From IMG/VR virus record IMGVR_UViG_3300029267_000805, positions 1-21,349 of that record: a DNA stretch of 21,349 nucleotides; one strand, 5' to 3'. Origin of the DNA: a virus. Shown piece by piece: positions 885-21,349 of the stretch. The notes under the pieces were generated by a model, which saw only the letters and a list, made by a program, of their open reading frames with translations, had not been told where the DNA came from and searched no databases. Position numbers and translations under genes: made by a program. Position 1 is the first letter of the stretch. Each line of letters opens with the position of its first letter.

Positions 885-3431
885 ATGGCAATAAACCGAG
901 AGTCCACAATTCAACACTTGTATTCAGGAACAGGGGGGGTCCAACCGACCCCCACTGATCTTGAGTATGGTGAGTTGGCCATCAACATATCGGATGGTAA
1001 AGTATTTTTCAGAGGAAGTGATGATTCTCTGAAGACGTTGTTGTCGTCTGGTGATCTTGTAACTTCAATTAACGGAGAGACAGGAGATTACACCGATCCA
1101 ACACCATATACTGGCATTCTCCACGGCGGTGTTCTTTCTGGGACTCTTGGTGGAACGACCTTTGATGTCTCTGCTGGTATCGGTCAGATTGTAGGAATCA
1201 CCACAGGGACTGCTGGTGTCACCATGACACGAACGGAAGTGACATGGGATGCTTTTACCAATGTGTCTCCGACCTATCTCGCAACGAATGACTTCAGTCG
1301 TGTTTATATTGATTCGAGTGGCACTCTACAACAACAGACTGCTCCATTCACGCATGATGATTACCGAGACAAGATTATTCTTGGAACAATCAGTCACATT
1401 GACCAGTCAACAATCGCTCTGATTACCAACAAGCAGAATGTTGCTTTCCAAATGGGACATCGACTGAGTGATTTGATGGAAGTCTTTGGACCGATGAAGA
1501 AGTCGGGACTGGTTGTTTCCGCAAACGGAGCAAATCTTTCACTCGATCGTTCATCGGGTGAAGTCTTCTGGATTGGTTCGAACTATTCACAAGATCAGAT
1601 TGAACCAGATTTAGAAGAAGTTGTTGCTGAAACTGCGGCAGATATTGCTAGAATCTATCGTGATGGTTCTGGTGACTATGTGTATGACACGAACAGTGGA
1701 TCATTTTATACTGTTGTAGATCCAGCAAATTATGATGACGATAGTGGAACGCTTCAGACTGTAAACAACAATCAGTGGACAGTCCAAAGAATGTATATGT
1801 TCCCGAATCTCACGAATGTCATCATGTTGTATTATGGCATCGCGATTTACAATTCATTCTCTGATGCAGTAGAGGGAATTCAAACCGAATCATTCCAAGA
1901 AGCAGACATCACCGAAGACAATGCTGTTTTTCTTGGTTATCTTATTATTCGTGGCGGTGCTGCCGATCTTACTACGACCGATGATGCGAAGTTTATTCCT
2001 GCTGGATTTAGTCGTGTTTCTGGTGCTGGTGGAGGAGGTGGTGGTGCTGGTGCGGTTGGTGCCACGGGTGCTACTGGTGCGACTGGAGCAGATGCAACCC
2101 CAATCGGATATACCGCAGGAAATACTGCACCTTCTGGATCAAATACAGGTGACTTCTGGTTCGAAACAGATACTGGATTGTATTATGCCAATGTTTGGGA
2201 TGGTATTACACTTGCATGGGTTCAGTTGACGGGTACTAAGGGTGCCACTGGACCTACTGGTGCGATCGGGCCGACTGGTGCTGATGGTGTGATTGGTCAG
2301 TCCATTGGATATACAGCAGGAAACACGGCACCATCAACAGCAAACACAGGCGACTTCTGGTATGAAAATGATACAGGTTTATATTACGCCTATGTTTGGG
2401 ATGGTTCAACTTTAGGTTGGTTGCAGATTTCTGGACAGGATGGTGTTGATGGTCCTACTGGTGCGACAGGTCCACAAGGTGATCAAGGTATTCAAGGGAA
2501 CACTGGTGCAACAGGTCCACAAGGTGATCAAGGTATCCAAGGAAACACTGGTGTTACTGGTGCCACAGGAGCAACTGGTCCACAAGGTGATCAAGGTATC
2601 CAAGGAAACACTGGTGTTACTGGTGCCACAGGAGCAACTGGACCACAAGGTGATCAAGGTATCCAAGGAAATACTGGTGCAACAGGTCCAGTCGGTGATT
2701 ACGTCGAGACATTCAACGGAGCAACTGGTGCCGTAGAAGGTGTCTCTTCTGTCAACGGAGAGACGGGTGATGTGGACTCTGGTGGTGCGGGTATTCGCTT
2801 CACTTTCGAACCATCGGTTCCATCAATGGGTGCTGGAGAAATCTGTATCACTTCAACAGTCATGACTGTTAGTTATACATCAGCATCAGGACTAGGAATG
2901 ACTGGTGCTATGCAGGATTTCTATGACGCTGGTGGTGGTACGGTTCTTGTGTCTTCTGCTGATGGTGATAGGGTTCTCTATATTGGAGACATTCCAGCAT
3001 CCCAATTAACGGATGTTTCTGGTTCATCCTACTGGAGATTTACCTTCAGTGGAACTGATATTATCAACGATGAAGCAAATATGTCATCTGGTGAGAATCT
3101 TTTCCTGAGTCTTGTTCCAAGATCCCCATCCACCATCACCTCATCCTACGCAGGCCACATCTACGCTCCATCCGAAGGAACCTACTACCTCGATCCACGG
3201 GCACCAGTCGGAAGAACCATCACAGAGTTCTATGCCATCTGCGGAACAGGTGGAATCTCTGCGGATCTCTACAACTCTGGTGCAACAGTCGGATCTCTCA
3301 ATGTCACACCAACGGGTGCCACCGCATCTCTGTCAAACACATCACTTGCCGAAGGTGGAACACTCGAAATGGTGACATCCAACTATAGTGCTTGTTATGA
3401 CTTTAGATTTGCGGTGAGGTACACTCAATGA
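885..3431 (+). CDS. Tail fibre with collagen-like repeats
   Basis: An 848-residue protein. Residues 1-50 (ending near [18 protein letters not shown]) match the usual N-terminal phrase of phage tail fibres that attach to the tail. Residues about 60-380 form a large non-repetitive region of unknown fold, followed by a glycine run (AGGGGGGAGA). Gly-X-Y collagen-type stretches lie at 390-403, 450-470 and 522-604. Between them sit two copies of a 44-residue module rich in aromatic residues (407-450 and 474-517; [20 protein letters not shown]). Residues 635-848 are a beta-rich C-terminal part and the likely receptor-binding tip. The phrase NGETGD occurs both near residue 63 and near 624. Codon use in the C-terminal third changes sharply. 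ATG at 885 is chosen because the preceding gene ends at 877. Collagen-like stretches in phage fibres are known to form trimers. Adhesin role is inferred. Confidence 0.85.
2103..2435 (+). repeat. Duplicated 44-residue module inside fibre gene
   Basis: Two diverged copies, 2103-2234 and 2304-2435, lie 201 bp apart in the same frame. They encode similar modules beginning [11 protein letters not shown] and continuing with GDFW, GLYY and VWDG. They are separated by a short collagen-like linker. Protein identity is high while many third codon positions differ, so the duplication is older than the collagen repeats downstream. Modules of this kind may be globular knobs along a collagen-like shaft; that is inference. 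Confidence 0.8.
2471..2690 (+). repeat. Tandem collagen-coding repeats (45 and 63 bp)
   Basis: The phrase coding for [13 protein letters not shown] starts four times, with its CCACAAGGTGATCAAGG core offset by 45, 63 and 63 bp (copies near 2471, 2516, 2579 and 2642). The second and third units are almost identical in DNA, which indicates recent slippage or unequal exchange. All spacings are multiples of nine bases, so the Gly-X-Y register is kept when the copy number changes. Confidence 0.9.
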
Positions 3432-4573
3432 GCAACTGGTTTGGTGGAGAACTGTGTGGAGAAGAACCTGCTCTCTGTGTGGAGGTGCGGGTTGATACTG
3501 CCGAACAATCTGGTGTTGGTAATTTTGGGTTTAGTCGGATTGCCGCTGCAACCAATAATGTGTTGATCGACTGGGGTGACGGAAGTTATCCAGAAACAGT
3601 GACTACAACTGGTGGTATTACTCACGGTTATGCAGACTCAACAAAGAGATATCTTGTCAAGATATATGCAGCAAATCCAAGTCACGCATTTGGAAATAAC
3701 TCGTACCTTAGTAGAAACTATGACGAAAACAAGATCACTGAACTCGTCGCGATGGGTGACATCAAATACGATGGGTTAGGAAGCAGCGATCATGGTTTAT
3801 TTCGCGAAGTACGGTCAATGGTCGGTACTCCTCTGAAGTCTTCTGCTGATTTAAGAAATATTAGTTCAAACGGATTTTTCCGATTATTTAATCTTGCTAC
3901 TGTTTTTAATGGAAACGTCGGCTCTTGGGATGTGTCAAGTGTGACGAATATGCGTCAAGCATTTAATAACGCAGTGGCGTTCAACCAAGATATAGGATCT
4001 TGGGATGTTTCGAATGTGACAAATATGAGAAATCTGTTCGATAATGCATCTACGTTCAACCAAGATATAGGATCTTGGGATGTTTCGAATGTGACAAATA
4101 TGAGAAATCTGTTCGATAATGCATCTACGTTCAACCAAGATATAGGATCTTGGGATGTGTCAAGTGTGACAAATATGAATCAGATGTTCAATAGTGCTGG
4201 CGTATTCAACCAAGATATCGGTTCGTGGGATGTTTCGAATGTAACGGACATGGGGTTGATGTTCATTGGTGCATCTTCCTTTGACCAAGATATCAGCGGA
4301 TGGAGCCCTTCTACAACTGCTGCTAATTTTTCTGGTATGTTGGCCAATAGCGGATTATCCGTAGAGAACTACAGTAAATGGTTGATTTGTCTTGCGAACT
4401 GGGCATATGACAACAGTTACACCACTGCCGAATCTCTTGGTGCATCTGGACTTCAGTATAACAATACGACATACACGGGAATCGGATCGGGTCAATATAC
4501 CGATGCAGTGTCCGCAAGAGCATATCTTGTAACGACTCTTGGTTGGACCATCACTGATTCAGGACAAGCATAA
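3428..4573 (+). CDS. BspA-like / DUF285 repeat surface protein
   Basis: A 381-residue protein whose ATG overlaps the stop of the fibre gene (ATGA). Residues about 35-75 contain a PKD-like strand with VLIDWGDGS, often seen at the start of DUF285 proteins. Residues 160-290 carry five 25-residue repeats of the form [16 protein letters not shown] plus a sixth, truncated one, the hallmark of BspA/DUF285 surface proteins of bacteria and protists (family knowledge). The C-terminus (about 300-381) is non-repetitive, with [13 protein letters not shown] and a Tyr/Ala-rich end. In this operon it is probably a virion-surface or host-attachment protein. No catalytic motif is seen. Two repeats are identical in DNA, so the copy number may change easily. 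Family assignment is firm; the role is inferred. Confidence 0.85.
3905..4303 (+). repeat. 75-bp tandem repeats coding DUF285 units
   Basis: Units begin at 3905, 3980, 4055, 4130 and 4205, with a partial sixth at 4280, all exactly 75 bp apart. Units 2 (3980-4054) and 3 (4055-4129) are identical at every base, and the identity continues about 29 bases into unit 4. The others are diverged. This marks a very recent in-frame duplication. Confidence 0.95.
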
Positions 4574-5533: not shown

Positions 5534-6103
5534 ATGAACGGTTTGCCTACTCTTCGTTATTTTCGTACCCACTCCAATGTTCAACATCCAGTACTGAGCA
5601 CACAAGAAGCCGCATGCTATGATCTTTGTGCACATCTCCATGGACCAGTGTCTTCTGAAGACAGGTTCCCAGAGATCAGATCAGTCACTCTCTACACCCC
5701 ACACAACGAGATGATTACGGCTGTCGTTGAGACGGTGTTCGTCAACGACGAGCCACAGTCCTCGGTCTTGATCCCACCGCGCCACCGTGCTGTAATTCCT
5801 ACTGGTGTCGTTTTCGACATCCCCAAGGGATTCTCGGTTAGGCTTCATCCACGATCTGGACTTTCGATCAAGAAGGGATTCATCGTGGCGAATTGTGAAG
5901 GAGTCATCGATTCTGACTACTTTCATGAGATCAAGGCTCTGATGGTCAACAACAGTGACATGCCCATTACGATTAATCATGGGGATCGGATCTGCCAAGC
6001 AGAGTTGGTTCGAGTAGAACCACACACTTTCGAAGAGACAAACGTCCGACCAGAGCAAAGGACCGACCGTGTTGGTGGTCTTGGATCTACTGGTATTCAG
6101 TAA
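5534..6103 (+). CDS. dut: dUTPase (dUTP diphosphatase)
   Basis: Hydrolyses dUTP to dUMP and pyrophosphate, keeping uracil out of DNA and supplying dUMP to thymidylate synthase. All five motifs of trimeric dUTPases are visible in the 189 residues: CYDLCAH (28-34), PRSGLSIK (106-113), GVIDSDY with the presumed catalytic Asp126 (123-129), GDRICQAE (150-157) and the C-terminal P-loop-like RVGGLGSTG (179-187). The protein is longer than typical (about 140-170 residues), because residues 37-80 contain extra sequence between motifs 1 and 2. A CAGGAGA ribosome site precedes the ATG. It is the first gene after a sigma70-like promoter and works logically with ThyX downstream. Confidence 0.95.
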   Translation: MNGLPTLRYFRTHSNVQHPVLSTQEAACYDLCAHLHGPVSSEDRFPEIRSVTLYTPHNEMITAVVETVFVNDEPQSSVLIPPRHRAVIPTGVVFDIPKGFSVRLHPRSGLSIKKGFIVANCEGVIDSDYFHEIKALMVNNSDMPITINHGDRICQAELVRVEPHTFEETNVRPEQRTDRVGGLGSTGIQ

Positions 6104-6114
6104 TGAGGTGAAAA

Positions 6115-6504
6115 ATGAATCGTGATGAATTGATTGAATATCATGTTGATCTTTGCGATGCTGCTAGAGAGCTGATGCGTCTCAAGAATCACGACTACGC
6201 TGGTGAAGGATCCAGCAACCCATGGATGAATTTCGAGCGATCTGAACTGATGGGTGTTTGCAAGACAGAGCAGGCATTCATGGTCCGAATCCTCGACAAG
6301 ATCAGCAGACTGATCACGTTCGTCGATGCTGGTCAGCTACAAGTCAAGGAAGAAAGTGTCTTTGACTCTATCGTTGATTTGATCAACTACCTCGTCCTCT
6401 TTGGTGCCTTCGTCAACGAGAAGAAGGATACCAACCGACCAGTTCGAGGTCAGGCTGGATTTCTGACCGAAGAAGATCTTGACGACCCAACGCCCAACTG
6501 CTAG
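6115..6504 (+). CDS. DUF1599 (Nmad1) / MazG-like protein
   Basis: A 129-residue protein with a GAGGTGA ribosome site 11 bases after the dUTPase stop. The pattern KNHDYAG (24-30), RILDKISRL (58-66) and ESVFDSIVDLINYL (79-92) fits the DUF1599 family, related to all-alpha MazG/dUTPase-like nucleotide pyrophosphatases and also called nucleotide modification associated domain 1. The acidic residues in the third helix (D83, D87) could bind metal. Probable role is handling a nucleotide or modified nucleotide; the substrate cannot be read from sequence. It sits between dUTPase and DNA polymerase, which supports a nucleotide-pool function. Confidence 0.75.
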   Translation: MNRDELIEYHVDLCDAARELMRLKNHDYAGEGSSNPWMNFERSELMGVCKTEQAFMVRILDKISRLITFVDAGQLQVKEESVFDSIVDLINYLVLFGAFVNEKKDTNRPVRGQAGFLTEEDLDDPTPNC

Positions 6505-6513
6505 AATGAGAGA

Positions 6514-9036
6514 ATGAGCGAAAAGAAATTCTATACCAATGTGGTCACATACGGCAACACGATCTACTACCGAGGTTATGAAAACGGAAAAGCCGTAAAG
6601 ACCAACCCAGAGTTCAATCCGACTCTCTTCATCCCCTCCAGACGCGAAACACGATATCGCAACCTGGAGGGGTTGTTTGTTGAACCAGTACATCCAGGCT
6701 CCATTCGAGATTATCGCGAATTTATCAAGAAGTACGATAATGTCGGTGGCATGCGCATCTACGGCGACATCAATCTCGAATGCCAGTTTATCGGAAAGGA
6801 GTTTCCACAAGAAGAAGTGGATTACGACTTCAGCATGCTGAAAGTCGCGACCATCGACATCGAGACTACGTGTGATCACGGATTCCCTGACATCGACAAC
6901 CCCAAGGAGAAGATCATTGCGATCACTATTCAGATTGGTGATAAAACTACTAGTTTGGGTCTGGGTAGTTTCAATATTGTGGGTGTCGATTCTTTTGATT
7001 ACGTTGAAGAACGGGACCTCCTGACCACATTCCTCGATTTCTGGGACAATGAGAGACCAGACATCGTGACAGGATGGAACATCCGATTCTTCGACATCCC
7101 CTATCTTTTTGCACGAATCACTGAAGTGCTCGGTGAGAAGGAAGCAAAGAGGCTTAGTCCATGGCGAATCACTAAGGAGAAGAGTGTTCATCGCCGTGGT
7201 CGAGAGCAGAAGATCTTTGATCTCGTCGGCATCGCGGTCATGGATTACTTCGATCTCTACCAAACGTTCACATACACGAACCAAGAGTCCTATCGACTCG
7301 ACCACATCGCGTACGTTGAGCTTGGTGAACGCAAGTTGTCATACGAAGAACACGGATCGATCCGCGAGTTCTACAAGAATGACTTCCAGAAGTTCATGGA
7401 ATACAACGTCAAAGACGTTCATCTTGTGACTCGTCTTGAAGAGAAGTTGAAGTTGATGGAGTTGGCAGTCGCTCTCGCCTATGCCGCCAAGGTCAACTTC
7501 ATGGACGTCTTCTCTCAGGTCAAGATGTGGGACTCCATCATCTACCATTATCTTAAGGCTCACAACATCGTCATTCCTCCTCGTGCGGTGACGAAGAAGG
7601 CAGAACAGTACGCAGGTGCTTATGTGAAGGAACCAATCGTCGGAATGCATGATTGGATCATGTCCTTCGATTTGAACAGTCTGTATCCCCACCTGATTAT
7701 GCAGTACAACGTGAGTCCTGAGACCAAGGTGGCAAACACCGAGAAGGGTATGATGCTCGGACTGATGAGTCCAGACAGACTGCTGAATCCGACCGAAGGA
7801 ACGCAGTCCTTCCTCGATGAGTGGAAGGAGCAAGATCTCTCCATTGCATCGAATGGTGTAACCTTCACTCGCAAGTTCAAGGGATTTTTGCCTGCGATCA
7901 TGGAGAAACTCTACGAAGAGCGAAAGGTCGCCAAGAAGAAGATGATCGAGTGTCAGCAGGCAGCAGAGAAAGACCCTGGCAATAGGAAGATCGAATACGA
8001 CATCACCAAGTACAAGAACCAGCAGTTGGTCCGCAAGGTACAGTTGAATTCGGCATATGGTGCAGTTGGTAATGAATACTGCCGATACTACGACGTTGAG
8101 CTGGCAGAGGCAATCACGATTTCTGGTCAATTCAGCATCAGATGGATTGAGCACAGACTGAATGAATATTTCAATAAAGTTCTGGGCACGGAGAAGAAAG
8201 ATTATGTTGTTGCAATCGACACTGACTCAGTGTATCTTCGGGTTGGCGACCTTGTGTCTCGTTTCTGCCCACATAAGACGGAACAAGAAATTGTTGATTT
8301 CCTCGATAGAACGGCAGAAGAGGCTATCCTCCCATTCATCGATCGAAAGTACGAAGAGATGGCGGAGAAGGTCAACGCGTACCAGCAGAAGATGAAAATG
8401 GGCAGAGAGGCAATCGCTAACAAGGGCATCTGGACTGCCAAGAAGCGATACATCCTCAACGTGCTCGATAATGAAGGTGTTCGGTACGAGACTCCCAAGA
8501 TCAAGGTGACAGGAATCGAGACGACGAGAGCATCGACTCCTGAAGCTGTCCGCAAGTTCTTGACCGAGACGATTCGTCTGATCCTTGACACAGATGAAGA
8601 TACGGTGATTAACCACATCGAAGAAGTGAGGAATCATTTCAATGGTCTGACTCCAGAAGAGATTGCGTTCCCGAGAGGAATCAAAGGTCTGAAGAAGTAC
8701 GGAGATTCAAGCAGAGTTTATGCACCTCACACTCCGATCGCGACCAAAGGCGCTTTGCTGTACAATTACCATTTGAAGAAGAACGGACTCCTCAATAAAT
8801 ACCAGGCAATTCAAGAGAATGACAAAGCAAAATTCATCTATCTGAAATTGCCCAACACGATCAGAGAGAGGGTGATCACCTTCCCAGACGGACTGCCGAA
8901 GGAGCTCGATCTTCATGATTATGTTGACTATGACACGCAGTTCGAGAAATCGTTTCTCGATCCATTGAAGTCTATTCTGGAAGCCATCGGTTGGAGTTCA
9001 GAAAGAGAAAGCACACTTGAAGGACTTTTTGTATGA
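6514..9036 (+). CDS. 43: DNA polymerase, family B, T4 gp43-type
   Basis: Replicative DNA polymerase with proofreading. The 840-residue length suits the T4-like family (T4 gp43 is about 898). The 3'-5' exonuclease motifs are present: IDIETT with Asp115 and Glu117, [10 protein letters not shown] with Asp194, and YNVKD with Asp301. Polymerase motifs follow: A, FDLNSLYP (385-392); [10 protein letters not shown] (508-516); C, DTDS (569-572). The last residues, STLEGLFV, resemble the clamp-binding tail of T4 gp43. There is no intein or split. ATG at 6514 is used because the dUTPase-side gene ends at 6504; the ribosome site is weak. Its end overlaps the UvsX start (ATGA), so the two are coupled. Confidence 0.97.
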
Positions 9037-10091
9037 CTGATTTTTTGCAAACGATCATCAAGGACTCTGGCAACAAGTACGCAAGCATTGTCGATGAAGG
9101 AGTGGAGGGGAGCGACATCAGTGGATTCATTAACACTGGTAGCCTCATCTTTAATGCACTCCTGTCTGGCGACATTTATGGCGGAATTCCAGACAACAAG
9201 ATTATCGCACTCGCTGGAGAAAGTGCAACAGGCAAGACTTACTTTGCACTCGACATGTGCAAGAAGTTTTTGACCGACAATCCAGAAGCAGCGGTTCTCT
9301 ACTTCGACACCGAGCAAGCAATCACCTCTGGTATGATCAAGGATCGCGGTATCGATCCCAAGAGAGTGGCGATCTTCCCAGTTGCTACTGTCGAAGATTT
9401 CCGACACCAGTGTATCAAGATCGTTGATAAGGTGCTGGAAATGGACAAGAGTGAGCGAAAGCCCATGATGATTGTGCTCGACTCTCTGGGCATGCTTTCG
9501 ACCAACAAGGAGATCAACGATACCGCAGAAGGTAAGGACACGAGAGACATGACTCGTGCACAGTTGATCAAAGCGACCTTCAGGGTGTTGACTCTTAAGC
9601 TCGGTCAAGCACACATTCCGATGCTCCTCACCAATCACACTTATGACGTAGTTGGTGCATATGTTCCCACCAAGGAGATGGGTGGTGGGTCTGGTCTGAA
9701 GTATGCAGCATCGACCATCGTCTATCTCTCCAAGAAGAAAGACAAGGATGGAACCGACATCATCGGTAACATCATCAGGTGCAAGTTGTTCAAGAGCCGC
9801 CTGACCAAGGAAAACAAGCAAGTTGAAGTCCAACTCAATTACGACACAGGACTCAACCCATACTACGGCCTAGTGGATATCGCTGTGAAGTACAACATCT
9901 TCAATAAGCTGGGCACTCGCATTGAACTCCCTGATGGAAGGAAGGTTTATGAAAAGCAAATCAACAACAACCCAGAACAATACTACACAGACGAAATTCT
10001 CGACCAAATCAACCGAGCTGTTGGCATTGAATTCAAGTACGGATCCAGCGGGACAGAGGAAGATGTTGAGGGAGAGAGCACCGAAGTTTGA
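9033..10091 (+). CDS. uvsX: UvsX recombinase (RecA-like)
   Basis: Forms ATP-dependent filaments on single-stranded DNA for strand exchange and recombination-dependent replication. In its 352 residues one sees Walker A GESATGKT (62-69), the catalytic-Glu region YFDTEQ (Glu94), Walker B MMIVLD (145-150) and the loop [11 protein letters not shown], typical of T4 UvsX. The C-terminus is strongly acidic ([11 protein letters not shown]), as in other UvsX and RecA tails. A GAAGGA ribosome site lies in the end of the polymerase gene. The next gene starts inside its 3' end. Confidence 0.95.
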
Positions 10092-10407
10092 ATTTCTCGA
10101 ATCCGAGAATGAAGGAGAGTTTCAGACTATCCGTATTGACAGCGGACCAGCCTCTGGTGTAAAATACCGATATGGTGTGATCTCCTTCAGCGGGATCGAT
10201 GAAAATGGGGACTTGATCGATGGTGGGGAGCCTTCGATCAATTTCACGTACGAGATCGCGGAAGATTGCGATGTCGAAGTTGATCAGGTGATCATAGATG
10301 AAATGGGCAAGGTCCTGTCGGTCTTGCTAGATGCGAAATATGGCGGTGAAGACAATGAAGAACCCATCGACGGAGAAGACGATCCTGAGCAGTCTGGTTC
10401 AGGATGA
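10063..10407 (+). CDS. Unknown acidic protein between uvsX and gp41
   Basis: I place the start at ATG 10063, preceded by CAGAGGAAG, giving 114 residues and a 29-base overlap with uvsX. The longer frame from 9922 would overlap uvsX by 170 bases with low-complexity Thr/Asn/Ser sequence, so it is rejected. The protein is strongly acidic, especially at the C-terminus ([17 protein letters not shown]). A small unknown gene between uvsX and gp41 is also common in cyanophages, from memory. No domain recognised. Acidic proteins in this position might contact single-strand-binding or recombination proteins, which is speculation. Confidence 0.7.
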
Positions 10408-11752
10408 GGAATACCTGCGAAAGGCGATGCCCTTCATCAAAGAAGAGTATTTCGCCGATAGAGTGGAAAGGAAGGTCTTCTGTCAGATTCAGGACTTCGT
10501 GTCCAAATACAACAATCTGCCTACACAAGAAGCACTCGGTATTTGCATCTCAGAGATCAATGACTTCACAGAGTCCGATTTCCGTGAAGCGAAAGAATTG
10601 GTGTCTGAGATCTTCGAAAAGAAGGAATCGCGACCAGACCAGAAATGGCTCGTGGACACGACTGAGAAATTTTGCAAAGATAAAGCGATTTACCTTGCTA
10701 TTCTAGAATCCATCCAGATCATAGATGGCAAATCGAAGCACGACAAGGGTCATCTTCCCAAGTTGTTGCAAGATGCACTGTCTGTTTCTTTCGATACACA
10801 TGTTGGTCATGATTACATCGAAGATGCAGAAGATCGATACGAGTTTTATCACCGCAAAGAAAAGAGAATCGCATTTGATCTTGACTACATGAACAAGATC
10901 ACCAATGGTGGGACTCCGACCAAGACTCTCAACATTGTGCTTGCTGGAACTGGTGTGGGTAAGTCTCTTTTCATGTGTCACCATGCGGCAAATTGCCTCT
11001 CTCAAGGCAAAAACGTTTTGTACATCACATGCGAGATGGCAGAAGAGAGAATCGCAGAGAGAATCGATGCGAACCTAATGGACATCACGATGGACGAGCT
11101 CCACGAGTTACCCAAGGATTCCTATGAGAAGAAAATGGCAAAGGTAGCTGGCAGGGTTTCTGGTGCTCTGATTGTCAAGGAGTACCCTACTGCAACCGCC
11201 AATGTGAATCACTTTCGATCTCTGCTTGAAGAGTTGAAGATGAAAAAGAATTTCGTCCCCGACATCATCTTCGTGGATTACCTCAACATCTGTGCTGCTG
11301 CGAGATTTAAGAATGCAGCGAACGTCAACTCATACATGTATGTCAAGGCGATCGCAGAAGAATTGCGTGGTCTGGCGATGGAGACTGAGATACCCGTCTT
11401 TTCTGCTACCCAGACCAACCGCACAGGATTCACTAGCTCAGACGTAGGACTGGAAGACACCTCGGAATCTTTCGGTCTGCCACAGACCGCCGACTTCATG
11501 TTTGCTTTGATCGCCAATGAAGAATTGGATCAGTTGAACCAGATCCTAGTCAAGCAGTTGAAGAACAGATATGCTGATCCCGCCACGAACCGCAGATTCA
11601 TCATCGGGATAAATAGAGCGAAGATGAAATTGTACGATGTCTCTTCTGCTGACCAAGACGATCTTGTAGATTCAGGTCAAAGCGGATACATAAGGGACGA
11701 TCTGGGTGATAAGTTTAAAGTAGGAGAGAAGTTCTCCGATTGGACTCTTTGA
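10355..11752 (+). CDS. 41: Replicative DNA helicase, T4 gp41-type (DnaB family)
   Basis: Hexameric 5'-3' helicase that unwinds the fork and works with primase. I prefer ATG 10355 (465 residues) because GGTGA lies five bases upstream and the N-terminus [13 protein letters not shown] resembles other phage gp41 starts. ATGs at 10331 and 10340 are in frame but lack ribosome sites. The RecA-type core has Walker A GTGVGKS (198-204), Walker B IIFVDY (304-309) and SATQTNR (350-356), the DnaB-type sensor motif. T4 gp41 is about 475 residues. It overlaps the preceding small gene by 53 bases. Confidence 0.93.
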   Translation: MKNPSTEKTILSSLVQDEEYLRKAMPFIKEEYFADRVERKVFCQIQDFVSKYNNLPTQEALGICISEINDFTESDFREAKELVSEIFEKKESRPDQKWLVDTTEKFCKDKAIYLAILESIQIIDGKSKHDKGHLPKLLQDALSVSFDTHVGHDYIEDAEDRYEFYHRKEKRIAFDLDYMNKITNGGTPTKTLNIVLAGTGVGKSLFMCHHAANCLSQGKNVLYITCEMAEERIAERIDANLMDITMDELHELPKDSYEKKMAKVAGRVSGALIVKEYPTATANVNHFRSLLEELKMKKNFVPDIIFVDYLNICAAARFKNAANVNSYMYVKAIAEELRGLAMETEIPVFSATQTNRTGFTSSDVGLEDTSESFGLPQTADFMFALIANEELDQLNQILVKQLKNRYADPATNRRFIIGINRAKMKLYDVSSADQDDLVDSGQSGYIRDDLGDKFKVGEKFSDWTL

Positions 11753-11762
11753 GGATACTATT

Positions 11763-11939
11763 ATGACTGATAGAAACGACGACAACTACGACCGACGCGC
11801 CCTGGAAGAAGCAGAGATGGAAGAATGGCGGCAGTGGGCAGAATCTTGGATCAACGAAATCGATGAGGAACATGGTGCTGGTGAAGTCGGCACTGATGAA
11901 TTGATCAACCAATACAAGAGAGACACTCCAGGGCAATGA
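11763..11939 (+). CDS. Small acidic protein between gp41 and gp61
   Basis: A 58-residue protein (MTDRNDDNYD to RDTPGQ) with a GAGGA ribosome site directly after the helicase stop, and its TGA overlaps the primase ATG (ATGA). The middle is a charged helix (ALEEAEMEEWRQWAESWINE) with three Trp residues. There is no membrane segment. Its perfect fit between helicase and primase, coupled at the downstream end, argues for a real gene, possibly an accessory to the helicase-primase pair. No family recognised. Confidence 0.7.
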   Translation: MTDRNDDNYDRRALEEAEMEEWRQWAESWINEIDEEHGAGEVGTDELINQYKRDTPGQ

Positions 11940-12982
11940 GCATCATACTCGATCGCCAGTTCATTGACATCGCTGGTAGAAGCCTGAGAAATTTCAAGTG
12001 GAAAAAAGAAGGACTTGCCAACTGCTCCTGTCCCATTTGCGGTGACAGCAAGCGAGACAAGAAGAAGGCAAGAGGTTATTTCTATAGTAAGCATGGCAAG
12101 TTTTTCTACAAGTGCCACAATTGCGATTATTGGGCGAACCTGTACACATTCCTGAAGGACACCAATGTTAGCCTTCATAAGGAATATTGCATTCAGTCAT
12201 GGCTCCAGAGTCCCGCTTACAGCGAGAAGAAGAATCAGAAAAGGGGAGATGAGATGTTTGGACTGAAGAACAGCAAGCCCAAGTTCAAAGACAAGATGCT
12301 CAAAGGGTGCAAATGTCTGAAAGATCTTCCTAAGGATCATCCTGCAGTTCAGTTTGCTGATCTTCGCATCATCCCCAAGCAACACTGGGACAAGCTGTTC
12401 TTCACCGAGAATTTCGGTGATCTCGCTGCAAACCTCGACCCAGAGCAGAAGCTCCTAAAGTATGACCCAAGAATCGTGATTCCTTTTTATAACAAGGAAG
12501 GAGGGGTGGTAGCGGTTCAAGGTCGTGCTCTCAGCATGAAGGCAGAAAACGAAGCACGCAAGACCGTGAAGTACATCACCGTCAAGGCAGACAAGAGCAT
12601 CGAACGTCTATGGTACGGGATGTGGAGGGCAAACCCAAAAAAGAGAGTGTACGTTGTTGAAGGACCGATCGACAGTCTGTTTTTGGCGAATGCAGTCGCC
12701 ATGGTCGGTGCTGGTTCTGCTAGCAACATCCCTTCCAGATTTGCTAATTCTGATATGGTTTTCGTGCTTGATAATGAACCTAGAAACAAGCAAATCATCA
12801 AGTATAACCAAAATCTCATCGACGCAGGTCACAAAGTTTGTATTTGGCCTAAGACGATAGACAAGAAAGACGTCAACGATATGGCGTATGACATGAGTGT
12901 CCGTGACATTCAGAAAATGATTGATAGAAACACATTCAGCGGACTTGAGGCGTCGCTGAGACTTAAGGAATGGAGTGTTTGA
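11936..12982 (+). CDS. 61: DNA primase, T4 gp61-type
   Basis: Makes RNA primers for lagging-strand synthesis together with gp41. The 348 residues match T4 gp61 (342). A four-Cys zinc ribbon is visible: CPIC (32-35) and CHNC (60-63). A TOPRIM domain follows, with VVEGPIDS (Glu242) and VFVLDNE (Asp279). The region between, with RGYFYSKHGKFFYKC, is typical of DnaG-like zinc domains. The ATG overlaps the previous stop codon. Confidence 0.93.
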   Translation: MSIILDRQFIDIAGRSLRNFKWKKEGLANCSCPICGDSKRDKKKARGYFYSKHGKFFYKCHNCDYWANLYTFLKDTNVSLHKEYCIQSWLQSPAYSEKKNQKRGDEMFGLKNSKPKFKDKMLKGCKCLKDLPKDHPAVQFADLRIIPKQHWDKLFFTENFGDLAANLDPEQKLLKYDPRIVIPFYNKEGGVVAVQGRALSMKAENEARKTVKYITVKADKSIERLWYGMWRANPKKRVYVVEGPIDSLFLANAVAMVGAGSASNIPSRFANSDMVFVLDNEPRNKQIIKYNQNLIDAGHKVCIWPKTIDKKDVNDMAYDMSVRDIQKMIDRNTFSGLEASLRLKEWSV

Positions 12983-12983
12983 T

Positions 12984-14051
12984 ATGAACAGTTTTAATTG
13001 CAAGTTTGAGTATCTTTGGTTGGACGGGTATGAAACACCCAACATCAGAAGCAAGACCAAGTATGTGACCATTCAGACTGAGAATGACAATCTTAGGATG
13101 GAAGATATTCCAGAGTGGTCTTTCGACGGATCAAGCACGGAACAGGCAGAAGGTGGAAACAGTGACTGTGTGCTCGTCCCAGTGAAAGTTTACAAAAACA
13201 CCATCGAGCAGACGTATGGGGTCAATTCGTTCATTGTCCTTTGTGAGGTGATGGACCGAAATTATGGTATCCATCCGTCCAACACTCGTGCCAAGCTGAG
13301 AGATGCCATTTCTCAGCATGGAGGGGAGGACATGTGGTTTGGTATTGAGCAGGAGTATCTTCTGGTTGATCCCAAGATCAGACGTCCTTATGGTTGGCCT
13401 CCTAGCGGTTTCCCGAACCCTCAGGGTCGATATTATTGCGGAGTTGGTGGCGATGTCGTCATTGGAAGGGATTTAGTTGAGGCTCACGCGATATCTTGCC
13501 TTGAAGCAGGAATTCCTATTTGCGGAACCAACGCAGAAGTGATGCTTGGGCAGTGGGAATATCAAGTCGGTACTGCTAACGCCCTGGATGTTTGTGATGA
13601 TCTGTGGGTAGCACGTTACCTGCTTGAAGTCCTCGCGGAGAGAGAAGGACTCGCTGTTTCGCTGACCCCCAAGCCTATTCAGGGAGATTGGAACGGTTCT
13701 GGTGCACACATCAACTTCTCTACCGAATTCCTTCGAGAAGAAGGCGGAGAAGAGTATATCAACGACGTCATCAAGGCTCTTGAAGAGAACCACGATCAGC
13801 ATATCGACAACTATGGAATCGATAACGATCTTCGGTTGACTGGCAACCACGAGACTGCATCGATCGATACTTTCTCCAGCGGAAATTCTGATCGTGGTGC
13901 TTCCATCCGAATCCCACCCTCAACTGCCAAGACCAAGAAGGGATATCTGGAAGATCGACGTCCAGCATCTAACATCGATCCATACCGAGCTGTCCGATGT
14001 CTGGTCGAAACCGTTAGCAAGGTCCCCACTCGACAGGCGGTGTCTTCATGA
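12984..14051 (+). CDS. glnII: Glutamine synthetase, type II (GSII, eukaryote-like)
   Basis: Makes glutamine from glutamate, ammonia and ATP. I chose ATG 12984 (355 residues), with TGGAG eight bases upstream; an in-frame GTG at 12975 is possible. The GSII landmarks run in order: WSFDGSSTEQAEG (45-57), GIEQEY (Glu122, Glu124), NPQGRYYCGVG (145-155), GTNAEVMLGQWE (Glu185, Glu192), GDWNGSGAHIN (His242), RLTG (Arg284), DRGASIRI (Arg304, Arg309) and GYLEDRRPASN (Glu323, Arg325). Compared with human GS, every metal, glutamate and ATP ligand I can place is kept; the only nearby change is RIPR to RIPP. Length is normal for GSII. It lies in the replication operon: the primase stops 1 base before the ATG, and ThyX overlaps its end by ATGA. 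It is not GlnA type I. A phage-borne GS is unusual as far as I know. Confidence 0.95.
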   Translation: MNSFNCKFEYLWLDGYETPNIRSKTKYVTIQTENDNLRMEDIPEWSFDGSSTEQAEGGNSDCVLVPVKVYKNTIEQTYGVNSFIVLCEVMDRNYGIHPSNTRAKLRDAISQHGGEDMWFGIEQEYLLVDPKIRRPYGWPPSGFPNPQGRYYCGVGGDVVIGRDLVEAHAISCLEAGIPICGTNAEVMLGQWEYQVGTANALDVCDDLWVARYLLEVLAEREGLAVSLTPKPIQGDWNGSGAHINFSTEFLREEGGEEYINDVIKALEENHDQHIDNYGIDNDLRLTGNHETASIDTFSSGNSDRGASIRIPPSTAKTKKGYLEDRRPASNIDPYRAVRCLVETVSKVPTRQAVSS

Positions 14052-14797
14052 GTTCATGGCTTGAGGTACCTGTCAAGGGTGTTCAAGGAGGGTTCGTACA
14101 ACTCATCGACTTCATGGGGAGTGATCTGACGGTCTGCAACGCGGCGAGAGTATCATTCGCCAAGGAGACAGATTGGGAAGTCGACAAGGAAGCAGCACAT
14201 AGACTCGCCGCTAGCGGGTCTTCTGTTCCTCTGTCAGAGTTGGTCAGACTCAGCGAGAAAGATCAGAAGCTCTTGAAGTATCTCGCTGAACACGGGCATT
14301 GGACTCCCTTCGCCCACCCACAGTTGACCTTCAGGATCAAAGCACCGATTTCTGTTCGAACGCAATTCTTCAAGCACAAGCAAGGATTCGTTGAAAACGA
14401 AATCAGCAGGAGATATGTTTCTTTCGAGCCTGAATTCTACTACCCGAAGTGGAGAGGCAAACCCACAAATGGTGCCAAGCAAGGCAGCGAAGACTTCCTG
14501 GAAATCGCACCCAACACGCAGAATCTCTATGATCAAGCCATCCGAGCAGCGATGTATGCATACAACAATCTCTTGGACAGCGGTGTTGCACCAGAACAAG
14601 CAAGATTTGTCTTGCCACAGGGCATGTTCACCGAATGGTTCTGGACTGGGAGTCTTGCTGCTTTCATGAGATTTTACAACCAGAGGTCAGAAGAACATGC
14701 ACAGTGGGAGATCAGGCAGTACGCAGATGCGATCATGGGTGTAGTCAAAGACCATTTCCCTTGGTCGGTCAAATATCTTGTGGGCGAAACTAACTGA
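14048..14797 (+). CDS. thyX: Flavin-dependent thymidylate synthase ThyX
   Basis: Makes dTMP from dUMP using methylene-tetrahydrofolate, FAD and NADPH. The signature lies at residues 109-122: KHKQGFVENEISRR. It has KHK where cellular ThyX has RHR, and eight instead of seven residues before the Ser; similar KHx forms occur in phage ThyX, from memory. The C-terminal half has ARFVLPQG, FWTGSLAAFMRF and QWEIRQYAD, typical of the family. The length, 249 residues, is normal. Its ATG overlaps the GS stop. It consumes the dUMP made by dUTPase. Confidence 0.95.
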   Translation: MSSWLEVPVKGVQGGFVQLIDFMGSDLTVCNAARVSFAKETDWEVDKEAAHRLAASGSSVPLSELVRLSEKDQKLLKYLAEHGHWTPFAHPQLTFRIKAPISVRTQFFKHKQGFVENEISRRYVSFEPEFYYPKWRGKPTNGAKQGSEDFLEIAPNTQNLYDQAIRAAMYAYNNLLDSGVAPEQARFVLPQGMFTEWFWTGSLAAFMRFYNQRSEEHAQWEIRQYADAIMGVVKDHFPWSVKYLVGETN

Positions 14798-14837: not shown

Positions 14838-16769
14838 ATGAGCAAAGAACTTCCCACTTCATATCAGTCTTTCATTCACCTTTCCCGATACTCCAGATGG
14901 CTGGAAGAAGAGGGAAGGAGAGAAACGTGGGATGAAACTGTCACGAGATACATGGACTTCTTCAAGGACCATCTGCAGATGACCTTGGGATACAAGATGG
15001 GTCCACAGATCTACAACGAGGTCAAGGACTCGATCCTGAATCTTGAGGTCATGCCTAGTATGAGATGTCTCATGACTGCTGGCGAAGCACTAAAGAAGGA
15101 CATGGTAGCTGGATATAATTGCTCCTATCTCGCCATCAACAGAGTACGTGCTTTTGATGAGATTCTTTACATTCTCATGTGTGGCACTGGTGTCGGTTTC
15201 AGTGTCGAAAGAGAATACGTCGCCAAGCTTCCGACCATCGCAGAGGAATTCACCGAGTCTGATACCACTATCGTCGTTCAGGACAGCAGAATCGGTTGGT
15301 GCAAGGCGCTCCGTGAATTGATTTCGCTCCTGATCACTGGACAGGTGCCTAAGTGGGATCTTTCCAAGGTAAGACCAGCAGGTTCAAGACTCAAGACCTT
15401 TGGTGGTCGATCTTCTGGTCCTGAGTCTCTAGACGAACTGTTCCGATTTACAGTCGAGAATTTCAAGAAGGCTGCTGGTCGCAAGATGACTAGTCTTGAA
15501 TGCCACGATCAGGTGTGCAAGATCGCTGAAATCGTGGTAGTCGGTGGTGTTCGTCGTGCTGCTCTCATCTCACTTTCATCTCTCACTGATGAGAGAATGC
15601 GTGGTGCCAAGCATGGACAGTGGTGGGTGATCGATCCTCACCGTGCTCTGAGCAACAACTCTGTCTGCTACAAGGAAAAGCCAGAAATGGGCACCTTCAT
15701 GCAAGAGTGGTTGTCTCTTTATGAGTCGAAGAGCGGTGAGAGAGGGATCTTCAACAGAGATTCCGCCAAAAGAACCGTAGAAGCGAACGGTCGAAGAGAT
15801 CCAGGCCATGATTTCGGTACTAACCCATGTTCCGAGATCATCCTTCGAGATCGTGAGTTTTGTAACCTCTCAGAGGTCGTGGCTAGAGAGGGAGATAGTA
15901 CAGAAGACATGGAGAGGAAGGTCCGAATCGCCACTATCATCGGAACGTGGCAGTCTACTCTTACAGATTTCAGGTATCTTTCTGCCGAATGGAAGAAAAA
16001 CTGCGAAGAGGAGAGACTCCTCGGTGTTTCAATCACTGGCATCATGGACAACAATGTTCTGAACGGTAAGGCCGCTCAGGGTGTTCTTCCTCAACTTCTG
16101 ACCAAGTTGAGGGAGGTAGCAGTCTCCACTAACAAGGAATGGAGCAATAGACTGGGGATCAGTCAGTCTACCGCAATCACCTGTGTCAAGCCTTCTGGTA
16201 CCGTGTCACAGTTGGTAGACTCTGCGTCTGGAATCCATGCACGACACAATCCGTACTACATCAGAACTGTTCGTGCATCGATCAAGGATCCTCTATGTGA
16301 CTTCATGATTGAAAGTGGGTTCCCCCACGAGCCGTGTGTCATGAAGGCAGACACCACCATGGTGTTCTCATTCCCAGTGAAGTCGCCAGAAAATGCAGTC
16401 TTCCGAAAGGACATGAGCGCAATCGAACAGTTGGAGCTTTGGTTGACGTACCAGAATTACTGGTGTGAACACAAACCGTCAGTCACCATCTCGGTGAAAG
16501 AGCATGAGTGGTTGGGGGTCGGTTCTTGGGTGTATGATCACTTCGACGAGGTGTGTGGCGTTTCGTTCCTTCCTTTCAGTGATCACTCCTACAAGCAGGC
16601 ACCTTATCAGGATTGTTCGAAGGAAGAGTATGAAGAACTGCTCGCCAAAATGCCGACCGATGTTGATTGGGCGGATCTTGCATCCTTCGAAAGAGGAGAC
16701 ACAACCGCTGGTTCACAGAGCATGGCATGCTCTGCTGGATCGTGTGAAGTAGTCGATTTGACCAACTGA
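14838..16769 (+). CDS. nrdJ: Class II (B12-dependent) ribonucleotide reductase
   Basis: Reduces ribonucleoside triphosphates to deoxy forms using adenosylcobalamin. All key Cys positions of the monomeric Lactobacillus leichmannii-type enzyme are seen: Cys95 in YNCSY, Cys331 in NPCSE (thiyl site, with Glu333), Cys342 in EFCNLSEV, and the C-terminal pair Cys631 and Cys636 in ACSAGSC. KPSGTVSQLVDSASGIHARH and YYIRTVR are also characteristic. The 643 residues are shorter than the 739 of the leichmannii enzyme, with about 53 residues missing between Cys95 and Cys331, which may affect the allosteric region. An AAAGGAG ribosome site precedes ATG 14838. No separate small subunit is needed, and none is present in this window. 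The 40-base gap upstream has no clear promoter. Confidence 0.95.
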   Translation: MSKELPTSYQSFIHLSRYSRWLEEEGRRETWDETVTRYMDFFKDHLQMTLGYKMGPQIYNEVKDSILNLEVMPSMRCLMTAGEALKKDMVAGYNCSYLAINRVRAFDEILYILMCGTGVGFSVEREYVAKLPTIAEEFTESDTTIVVQDSRIGWCKALRELISLLITGQVPKWDLSKVRPAGSRLKTFGGRSSGPESLDELFRFTVENFKKAAGRKMTSLECHDQVCKIAEIVVVGGVRRAALISLSSLTDERMRGAKHGQWWVIDPHRALSNNSVCYKEKPEMGTFMQEWLSLYESKSGERGIFNRDSAKRTVEANGRRDPGHDFGTNPCSEIILRDREFCNLSEVVAREGDSTEDMERKVRIATIIGTWQSTLTDFRYLSAEWKKNCEEERLLGVSITGIMDNNVLNGKAAQGVLPQLLTKLREVAVSTNKEWSNRLGISQSTAITCVKPSGTVSQLVDSASGIHARHNPYYIRTVRASIKDPLCDFMIESGFPHEPCVMKADTTMVFSFPVKSPENAVFRKDMSAIEQLELWLTYQNYWCEHKPSVTISVKEHEWLGVGSWVYDHFDEVCGVSFLPFSDHSYKQAPYQDCSKEEYEELLAKMPTDVDWADLASFERGDTTAGSQSMACSAGSCEVVDLTN

Positions 16770-19901: not shown

Positions 19902-20327
19902 ATGCGATCTGTGATTCTCGCTTTGGGTGTCTTCTCTTCTGCTTGCTTCGGTGCCGATCACCGCAATCTTTTGGATGCCTTGTGTAGGGTGGAGTCGAAT
20001 TGCCAGGAAGATGCAGTTGGTGACAACGGGAACGCGATCGGTCCATACCAGATTTGGAAGGTCTACTGGAGGGATGCGGTCGATTTCGATCCTTCCATCG
20101 GTGGATGTTACGAGGACTGCATAGATAAGGAGTACTCCGAAAAGGTGGTCCTAGCATACTGGAAGCGGTACGCGACTGAACGACGCCTTGGTAGGCCAGT
20201 GACCGACCAAGATCGTGCAAGGATTCACAACGGAGGGCCTCTCGGATACAATAAGAAGTCGACCGAGAAGTATTGGAAGAAGGTGAAAGATGTCCTCACA
20301 CAGAGTGCACCCAGCAGGGAAAGGTGA
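19902..20327 (+). CDS. Secreted lysozyme-like protein (invertebrate-type/destabilase-like)
   Basis: A 141-residue protein. Residues 1-18 look like a signal peptide (MRSVILALGVFSSACFGA), implying export to the periplasm. The mature part has CRVESNC (Glu31), GDNGNAIGPYQIWKVYW (Asp41) and the ending ARIHNGGPLGY with STEKYWKKV. This order matches i-type (destabilase) lysozymes, where Glu and Asp are catalytic and the ending ARIHNGGP...YW..V is diagnostic (family knowledge). Four further Cys could form disulfides. It should cut peptidoglycan and act as the phage endolysin. Alternative: a distant lytic transglycosylase, since the folds are related. AAGGA lies eight bases before the ATG. Confidence 0.8.
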   Translation: MRSVILALGVFSSACFGADHRNLLDALCRVESNCQEDAVGDNGNAIGPYQIWKVYWRDAVDFDPSIGGCYEDCIDKEYSEKVVLAYWKRYATERRLGRPVTDQDRARIHNGGPLGYNKKSTEKYWKKVKDVLTQSAPSRER

Positions 20328-20760: not shown

Positions 20761-20834
20761 GGGGGCGTAGCTCAGCGGATAGTAGCAACGGTCTTCTAAA
20801 CCGTAGGTCGCAGGTTCGATTCCTGCCGCCCCTG
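20761..20834 (+). tRNA. tRNA-Arg (anticodon UCU)
   Basis: Full cloverleaf by eye. Acceptor GGGGGCG pairs with CGCCCCT (a G-U at the first pair), discriminator G. The anticodon stem ACGGT/ACCGT has loop CTTCTAA, giving anticodon TCT at 20795-20797. The T arm is GCAGG-TTCGATT-CCTGC. The D stem is weak (three pairs and a C-T mismatch, GCTC/TAGC). CCA is not encoded. It reads AGA codons, used often in this phage. Confidence 0.92.
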
Positions 20835-21215: not shown

Positions 21216-21288
21216 GGCACCGTAGCTCAGTTGGTAGAGCGGCGAGCTGTTAACTCGCATGTCACTGGTTCGAGTCCAGTCGGGGGAG
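21216..21288 (+). tRNA. tRNA-Asn (anticodon GUU), acceptor stem mispaired
   Basis: D arm GCTC/GAGC, anticodon stem GCGAG/CTCGC with loop CTGTTAA (anticodon GTT at 21249-21251), and T arm ACTGG-TTCGAGT-CCAGT are all perfect. The 3' acceptor strand CGGGGGA would need TCCCCCG, but the 5' strand is GGCACCG, leaving mismatches at pairs 1, 2 and 4. The 5' strand instead suits a different tRNA ending CGGTGCC. It may be a chimera of two tRNA genes or a decaying gene. CCA is not encoded. Confidence 0.8.
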
Positions 21289-21297
21289 TTGAAATAT

Positions 21298-21349
21298 CGG
21301 GGTGTAGCGCAGTTTGGTAGCGCGGCTGGTTTGGGACCAGCAGGTCGCA
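21298..21349 (+). tRNA. tRNA-Pro (anticodon UGG), cut by window end
   Basis: The 5' acceptor strand CGGGGTG, D arm GCGC/GCGC and anticodon stem GCTGG/CCAGC with loop TTTGGGA (anticodon TGG at 21332-21334) are typical of tRNA-Pro. The T arm and 3' acceptor strand lie beyond the window. It follows tRNA-Asn after nine bases, so the cluster probably continues. Confidence 0.88.

Follow-up and report, generated by a model that had tools for sequence, protein, structure and literature searches.

A type II glutamine synthetase in uncultured T4-like phages and its possible link to 2-aminoadenine nucleotides

Introduction

Why should a phage with T4-type replication genes make its own glutamine? The question is raised by a viral stretch of 21,349 nucleotides (IMG/VR record IMGVR_UViG_3300029267_000805; hereafter the window, meaning the whole stretch analysed), in which a gene for type II glutamine synthetase (GSII) lies between those for DNA primase and the thymidylate synthase ThyX. 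Glutamine synthetase (GS) has been reported in moraphages (PMC12619734) and jumbo phages (PMC13037316), and in estuarine viromes it is an auxiliary metabolic gene (AMG) enriched in saline samples (PMC13288924). As phage-borne GS is already published, the occurrence of GSII alone is not new. The genes of moraphages and jumbo phages are likewise located on the phage genome and have a presumed role in nitrogen supply. Those phages are large, whereas the locus described here is T4-like, places GSII within an operon comprising primase, ThyX and ribonucleotide reductase (RNR), and has near-complete relatives that encode PurZ. The latter enzyme, together with PurB and IMPDH, provides the widely reported, functionally vague phage GS with a concrete and testable metabolic partner.

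A complete type II enzyme

The gene extends from position 12984 to 14051 on the plus strand as a full-length open reading frame, ATG to TGA, and encodes 355 amino acids. A Shine-Dalgarno-like GGAG (12972–12975, plus strand) lies 8 bases 5' of the start codon. The product matches the NCBIfam GlnII model with 402.5 bits (E 1e-120), as against 28–62 bits for non-GSII models, including 62 for GlnA and 42 for GSIII. The score does not reach the curated equivalog cut-off (NF041605, 500 bits): this speaks against orthology with ordinary bacterial GlnII but leaves the GSII fold and mechanism unaffected. A PDB search retrieves solved GSII enzymes with a best E of 4e-100; GSI chains align over partial lengths, with E values of 5e-9 or worse. 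The AlphaFold model of the protein (pLDDT 86, pTM 0.89) has as its top Foldseek match 4bax, the GSII of S. coelicolor (TM 0.89). Fold, length and metal, glutamate and ATP ligands are thus those of known GSII (NF041605; 4bax, 3fky, 2qc8), with about 42–50% identity to the solved structures; unlike these, the window enzyme is phage-encoded and belongs to a phage-only clade. Judged from its sequence, the reading frame encodes a GSII, the match being far beyond chance.

The initial annotation had described a complete enzyme keeping every ligand that could be placed, and the comparison bears this out. E122, E124, E185, E192 and H242, as well as R284, R304, R309, E323 and R325, are the same residues in the yeast, dog and Streptomyces enzymes, and all ten are invariant in an alignment of 19 phage and bacterial sequences. 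Between the window and its nearest relative (L002) dN is 0.020 and dS 0.55, a ratio of 0.036, which indicates that the gene is kept under purifying selection.

Gene order in the window

The genes listed here are all on the plus strand. GSII is preceded by a dUTPase-like protein (5534–6103), a 129-amino-acid protein (6115–6504) with a weak, below-cut-off match (E 0.0065) to DUF1599 (nucleotide modification associated domain 1), a gp43-like family B DNA polymerase (6514–9036, phrog_262), a UvsX-like recombinase (9033–10091, phrog_97), a DnaB-like replicative helicase (10331–11752, phrog_19) and a T4-type DNA primase (11936–12982; phrog_47, E 2e-73). It is followed by ThyX (14048–14797; PF02511, E 6e-49) and a class II, B12-dependent RNR (14838–16769, phrog_367). 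The previously noted junctions are exact on both sides: a single base separates primase from GSII, the primase stop occupying 12980–12982 and the GSII ATG beginning at 12984, and the ThyX ATG at 14048 overlaps the GSII stop as ATGA. GSII would be co-transcribed with primase and ThyX and probably translationally coupled to both. An Rfam scan for a glutamine riboswitch or another element near GSII returned only tRNAs.

A clade of uncultured T4-like phages

The order helicase-primase-GSII-ThyX-RNR is kept in nine other IMG/VR contigs (L001–L007, L062 and L067), whose GSII identity to the window descends from 100 to 64%; in L005–L007 the ThyX position is matched by a ThyX remnant only. A tenth contig, G039, shows the same order with a GSII of 61% identity. 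The two large contigs tested, of 126 and 136 kb (G001, the contig of L005, and G002, that of L067), both encode the T4-type gp23 capsid protein (PF07068, E about 1e-131), and gp32 (PF08804) is found in G002. On these gene contents (gp43, UvsX, DnaB-like helicase and primase in the window, gp23 and gp32 in its relatives), the window and its relatives are uncultured T4-like phages.

Among cultured phages the closest DNA polymerase (50%) and the closest primase (38%) come from the Kyanoviridae cyanomyoviruses, and the class II RNR is closest to the enzymes of HMO-2011 and roseophages (64%). The pointers to the host differ: the polymerase points to cyanophages and the RNR to alphaproteobacterial phages. 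In the cyanomyovirus S-RIM2 two RNR subunits directly follow primase, with neither GSII nor ThyX between them, unlike the arrangement in the window.

An exchange slot between primase and ThyX

That GSII belongs to the phage and is no stray insertion, as had been proposed, is corroborated by its presence in the same slot in nine other contigs, by the range of identities down to about 60% and by purifying selection; counting G039, ten contigs share the position. The accompanying statement that the gene is locked into the operon was too strong, because other relatives, collected by primase similarity, have either nothing or unrelated genes at this position. Primase and ThyX are directly adjacent in about 17 contigs. 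Elsewhere the slot accommodates a nucleotide-sugar epimerase (L152), a membrane protein of 314 amino acids that weakly matches a phosphate transporter (L159, L166, L168), a 271-amino-acid AsxRS-like catalytic domain (L170, L174, L175), an LpxH-like phosphoesterase with a glycosyltransferase (L179, L180) or small unknown proteins.

A tree built from the concatenated replication proteins recovers the main GSII contigs as one monophyletic group (SH-aLRT 100). L062 falls outside it, so that at least two changes are needed for GSII, and the content of the slot changes at least 11 times overall. Sequence comparison thus identifies the primase-ThyX gap as a site at which metabolic or host-like genes are swapped in this T4-like group, and it illustrates a way by which such phages exchange metabolic genes within a conserved operon.

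Some further observations concern this region. L195 is an additional slot example. The AsxRS-like protein (L170:6014-6826, with relatives L336–L415) consists of a class II catalytic domain without an anticodon domain, corresponds to phrog_29758, of unknown function, and occurs in at least 599 viral stretches; it is possibly an asparagine-synthetase-like enzyme. A collagen-repeat tail-like gene lies between ThyX and RNR in L154 (8374–9543) and L168 (7340–8548).

GSII in other phages and its ancestry

A single pattern scan of IMG/VR yields at least 224 viral stretches encoding GS. Among 50,697 phage records the sole GSII-level matches are huge uncultured phages of 634–735 kb, and no T4-like isolate is included. 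The initial suspicion that no T4-like phage with GSII was known therefore holds for isolates; the question of whether the gene is already common receives a divided answer, phage GS being neither rare nor unpublished and the T4-like isolates among these records being devoid of it.

The GSII tree contains several separate phage clades. That of the T4-like phages is phage-only (SH-aLRT 95, and 98 with its sister L008) and deep, and is not nested in any cellular group within a sampling biased by the search patterns. The tree that had been suggested for finding the donor lineage thus defines a phage-only clade and places no donor. Further clades comprise large phages, the huge phages of 634–735 kb, and phages with the order helicase-RNR-GSII-polB and a TonB-receptor gene. 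The TonB-dependent receptor, of 943 amino acids in L035 (7107–9935), lies beside RNR, GSII or polymerase genes; its family, F2, comprises L035, the one member scanned, and 26 other loci. L083, binned as Flavobacteriaceae TMED121, encodes a GSII that branches within a phage clade and is probably a phage contig within a bacterial bin.

PurZ, PurB and IMPDH in the relatives

All three near-complete relatives (G001, G002 and G039; 126–136 kb) encode PurZ, PurB and IMPDH in addition to GSII. The clade PurZ scores 209–212 bits with NF038379, under the cut-off of 300, as against 137–140 for the best PurA model, and its best PDB match is the PurZ of phiVC8 (E 7e-55). Serine replaces the Asp13 of PurA in eight of eight clade sequences (G001, G002, L243 and five more contigs); a published survey found Ser13 in 147 of 147 phage PurZ proteins (PMC12884076). 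In the phylogeny the clade sequences fall inside the PurZ clade with phiVC8, BUCT555, PMBT28 and pB23 (support 100/99). Within mainly open-access literature and databases, PurZ in T4-like phages is new, its previous occurrences being in small sipho- and podophages. The clade IMPDH has a GPGSICTTR motif and an Arg-Tyr flap, which distinguish it from GMP reductase, and is devoid of CBS domains. PurB scores 341 and 332 bits against a cut-off of 326, and a simple PurB signature pattern is matched in G002 only. An adenylate-kinase-like gene lies directly 3' of PurZ in two distinct lineages (L229:1706-2257, L449:8463-8933, L454:10981-11454) and is a candidate dZMP or dGMP kinase.

PurZ is not within the 21-kb window. 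A contig with PurZ, L247, shares its sample of origin with L149; the primases of L149 and the window are 100% identical. The tetranucleotide composition of L247 correlates with the window at r 0.962, within the 0.90–0.98 of known same-genome pairs, and is the best match to it outside copies of the window's own region. Common sample and matching composition make it probable that the window phage carries PurZ in its own genome. G003, whose GSII is 73% identical, is the closest relative of the window among longer contigs; it shares one sample and an exact 21-bp end overlap with the PurZ contig L249, and the two align end to end, contiguously, on L248, which ties a fourth GSII relative to PurZ. 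In G002, GSII and PurZ are about 46 kb apart, in separate gene blocks.

PurZ is missing from 18 of 18 relative contigs devoid of GSII. Twelve of these include the exonuclease gene located immediately after the PurZ block, and the genes that flank the PurZ position are direct neighbours in L271 and L265, with no PurZ between them. All 13 such contigs checked are without PurB, and 12 of the 13 are without IMPDH. No match to PurZ, PurB or IMPDH is found in L008, the sister lineage in the GSII tree (91 kb, gp23-positive, incomplete), and the 262-kb contig G062 has PurZ with no GSII match. A more general connection of GSII with PurZ through the PurA-like genes of the large GSII phages G010, G025 and W01 was discarded: these carry Asp13 and fall outside PurZ. 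As the GSII-PurZ association is essentially that of one clade, it provides no evidence of repeated co-acquisition, and it may reflect shared ancestry rather than function.

Adenosine deaminase genes are present in G002 and G039, adjoining IMPDH (L227:5933-6964 and L425:15238-16263, respectively), and the G002 copy is above the curated cut-off. Further uncultured PurZ lineages, of 43–47% identity, are represented by L446 (on a 262-kb contig), L445, L444, L449 and L454, several with a Dut-like gene nearby; the PurZ active site reads GSTGKG in L445 and L446 and GSCGKG in the others.

Comparison with known Z-genome phages

PurZ is a feature of phages with 2-aminoadenine (Z) genomes such as phiVC8, SH-Ab 15497, S-2L and PMBT28 (PMC12884076, PMC8342488), and the relatives of the window resemble them in encoding it. 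Unlike these four, the clade is T4-like, has a family B polymerase, and carries genes predicted to make Z. It differs from known Z-genome phages also in adding phage-encoded PurB, IMPDH and GSII, and in that no homologue of DpoZ, DatZ, MazZ or DUF5664 was found. The family A polymerase model to which DpoZ belongs (PF00476) has no match in G001, G002 or G039; S-2L is reported to use a PrimPol in place of DpoZ (PMC8065100). Reference DatZ, MazZ/DUF550, DUF5664 and DmtZ proteins gave only general dUTPase similarity in phmmer searches of the relatives, a similarity shared by PurZ-minus relatives, and an HD-motif screen retrieved nothing. The dUTPase and the 129-amino-acid protein of the window were considered as Z-specific partners and rejected, because both occur in relatives devoid of GSII and PurZ.

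A possible role for GSII

During infection GSII would make glutamine from glutamate, ammonia and ATP, and the likeliest main use of this glutamine would be to provide amide nitrogen for nucleotides. The earlier suggestion that the phage may raise the supply of amide nitrogen is supported, nitrogen supply being the sensible role. A more specific sink in this clade would be the guanine branch. GMP synthetase uses glutamine to place the 2-amino group on XMP. The phage IMPDH, without its CBS regulatory domain, would make XMP, which host GuaA would convert to GMP with glutamine; PurZ and PurB would then convert dGMP to the 2-aminoadenine nucleotide dZMP, and nucleotide phosphorylation may be the task of the kinase encoded next to PurZ. 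No GuaA was recognized, and a crude pattern search for class I and class II glutamine amidotransferase motifs found none in five contigs, including G001 and G002.

The ligands, the GSII fold, the dN/dS ratio, the position in a replication and dNTP operon and the presence of PurZ, PurB and IMPDH in near-complete relatives are in favour of this role. Against a Z role stand the restriction to one clade, the absence of PurZ from L008 and other GSII phages, the absence of a GSII match from G062, the distance between GSII and PurZ in G002 and the Z partners that were not found. What is inferred is the activity of the enzyme, its timing, the use of host GuaA, the presence of Z in the DNA of the clade and PurZ in the window's own genome. 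That a working GSII supplies glutamine chiefly for nucleotides, in this clade possibly for the GMP leading to 2-aminoadenine, is the preferred reading, held at slightly under an even chance. The bolder proposition is rather doubtful: that 2-aminoadenine DNA is made by T4-like phages whose polymerase is of family B and which do without DpoZ and DatZ, GSII and the CBS-less IMPDH supplying the amide nitrogen for GMP and, through it, for the extra 2-amino group of Z. If true, Z chemistry, so far described for sipho- and podophages of small size that have special polymerases, would reach large phages of the T4 type, and one would have to ask how Z is handled by a family B polymerase.

The synthesis of the purine ring and of CTP also draws on glutamine, which makes a general supply role nearly as likely: in waters poor in nitrogen GSII would raise glutamine for the whole of the phage's DNA, RNA and protein synthesis, PurZ, PurB and IMPDH being simply co-resident. 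This fits the recurrence of GSII without PurZ in unrelated lineages (TonB-receptor phages, moraphage-like large phages and huge phages), the published, saline-enriched AMG (PMC13288924) and its moraphage counterparts (PMC12619734), and a slot whose weak phosphate-transporter match in relatives would be expected of a generic nutrient-gene site. Against it stands the fact that three of three near-complete GSII genomes hold the guanine-to-dZ genes and that the 18 GSII-minus contigs are devoid of PurZ. GSI is adenylylated at a site that GSII lacks. A phage GSII could therefore escape the adenylylation or feedback control of host GlnA, as the initial annotation had also envisaged, keeping glutamine high or shifting the nitrogen-status signal. 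The distance of the enzyme from the GlnA family, to which it aligns only in part, is consistent with such a bypass, which is nevertheless improbable, as no regulatory partner gene is seen in the window and Rfam detects no glutamine riboswitch. The GS superfamily includes ligases for other amines and amides, and the protein matches the GGputSyn model at E 1e-6, yet a GSII-fold ligase joining glutamate to another amine, or making another amide, is the least probable alternative given the full set of GSII ligands and the gap between 402 bits and the scores of other models.

Other features of the window

A DUF285 repeat protein (3428–4573, E 1e-62) adjoins a collagen-repeat tail protein at 885–3431, and a Destabilase (invertebrate-type lysozyme) domain protein is encoded at 19902–20327 (PF05497, E 3e-16). 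The right end of the window harbours a tRNA cluster (20761–20834, 21220–21283 and 21298–21349), comprising tRNA-Arg TCT and two further Rfam tRNA matches.
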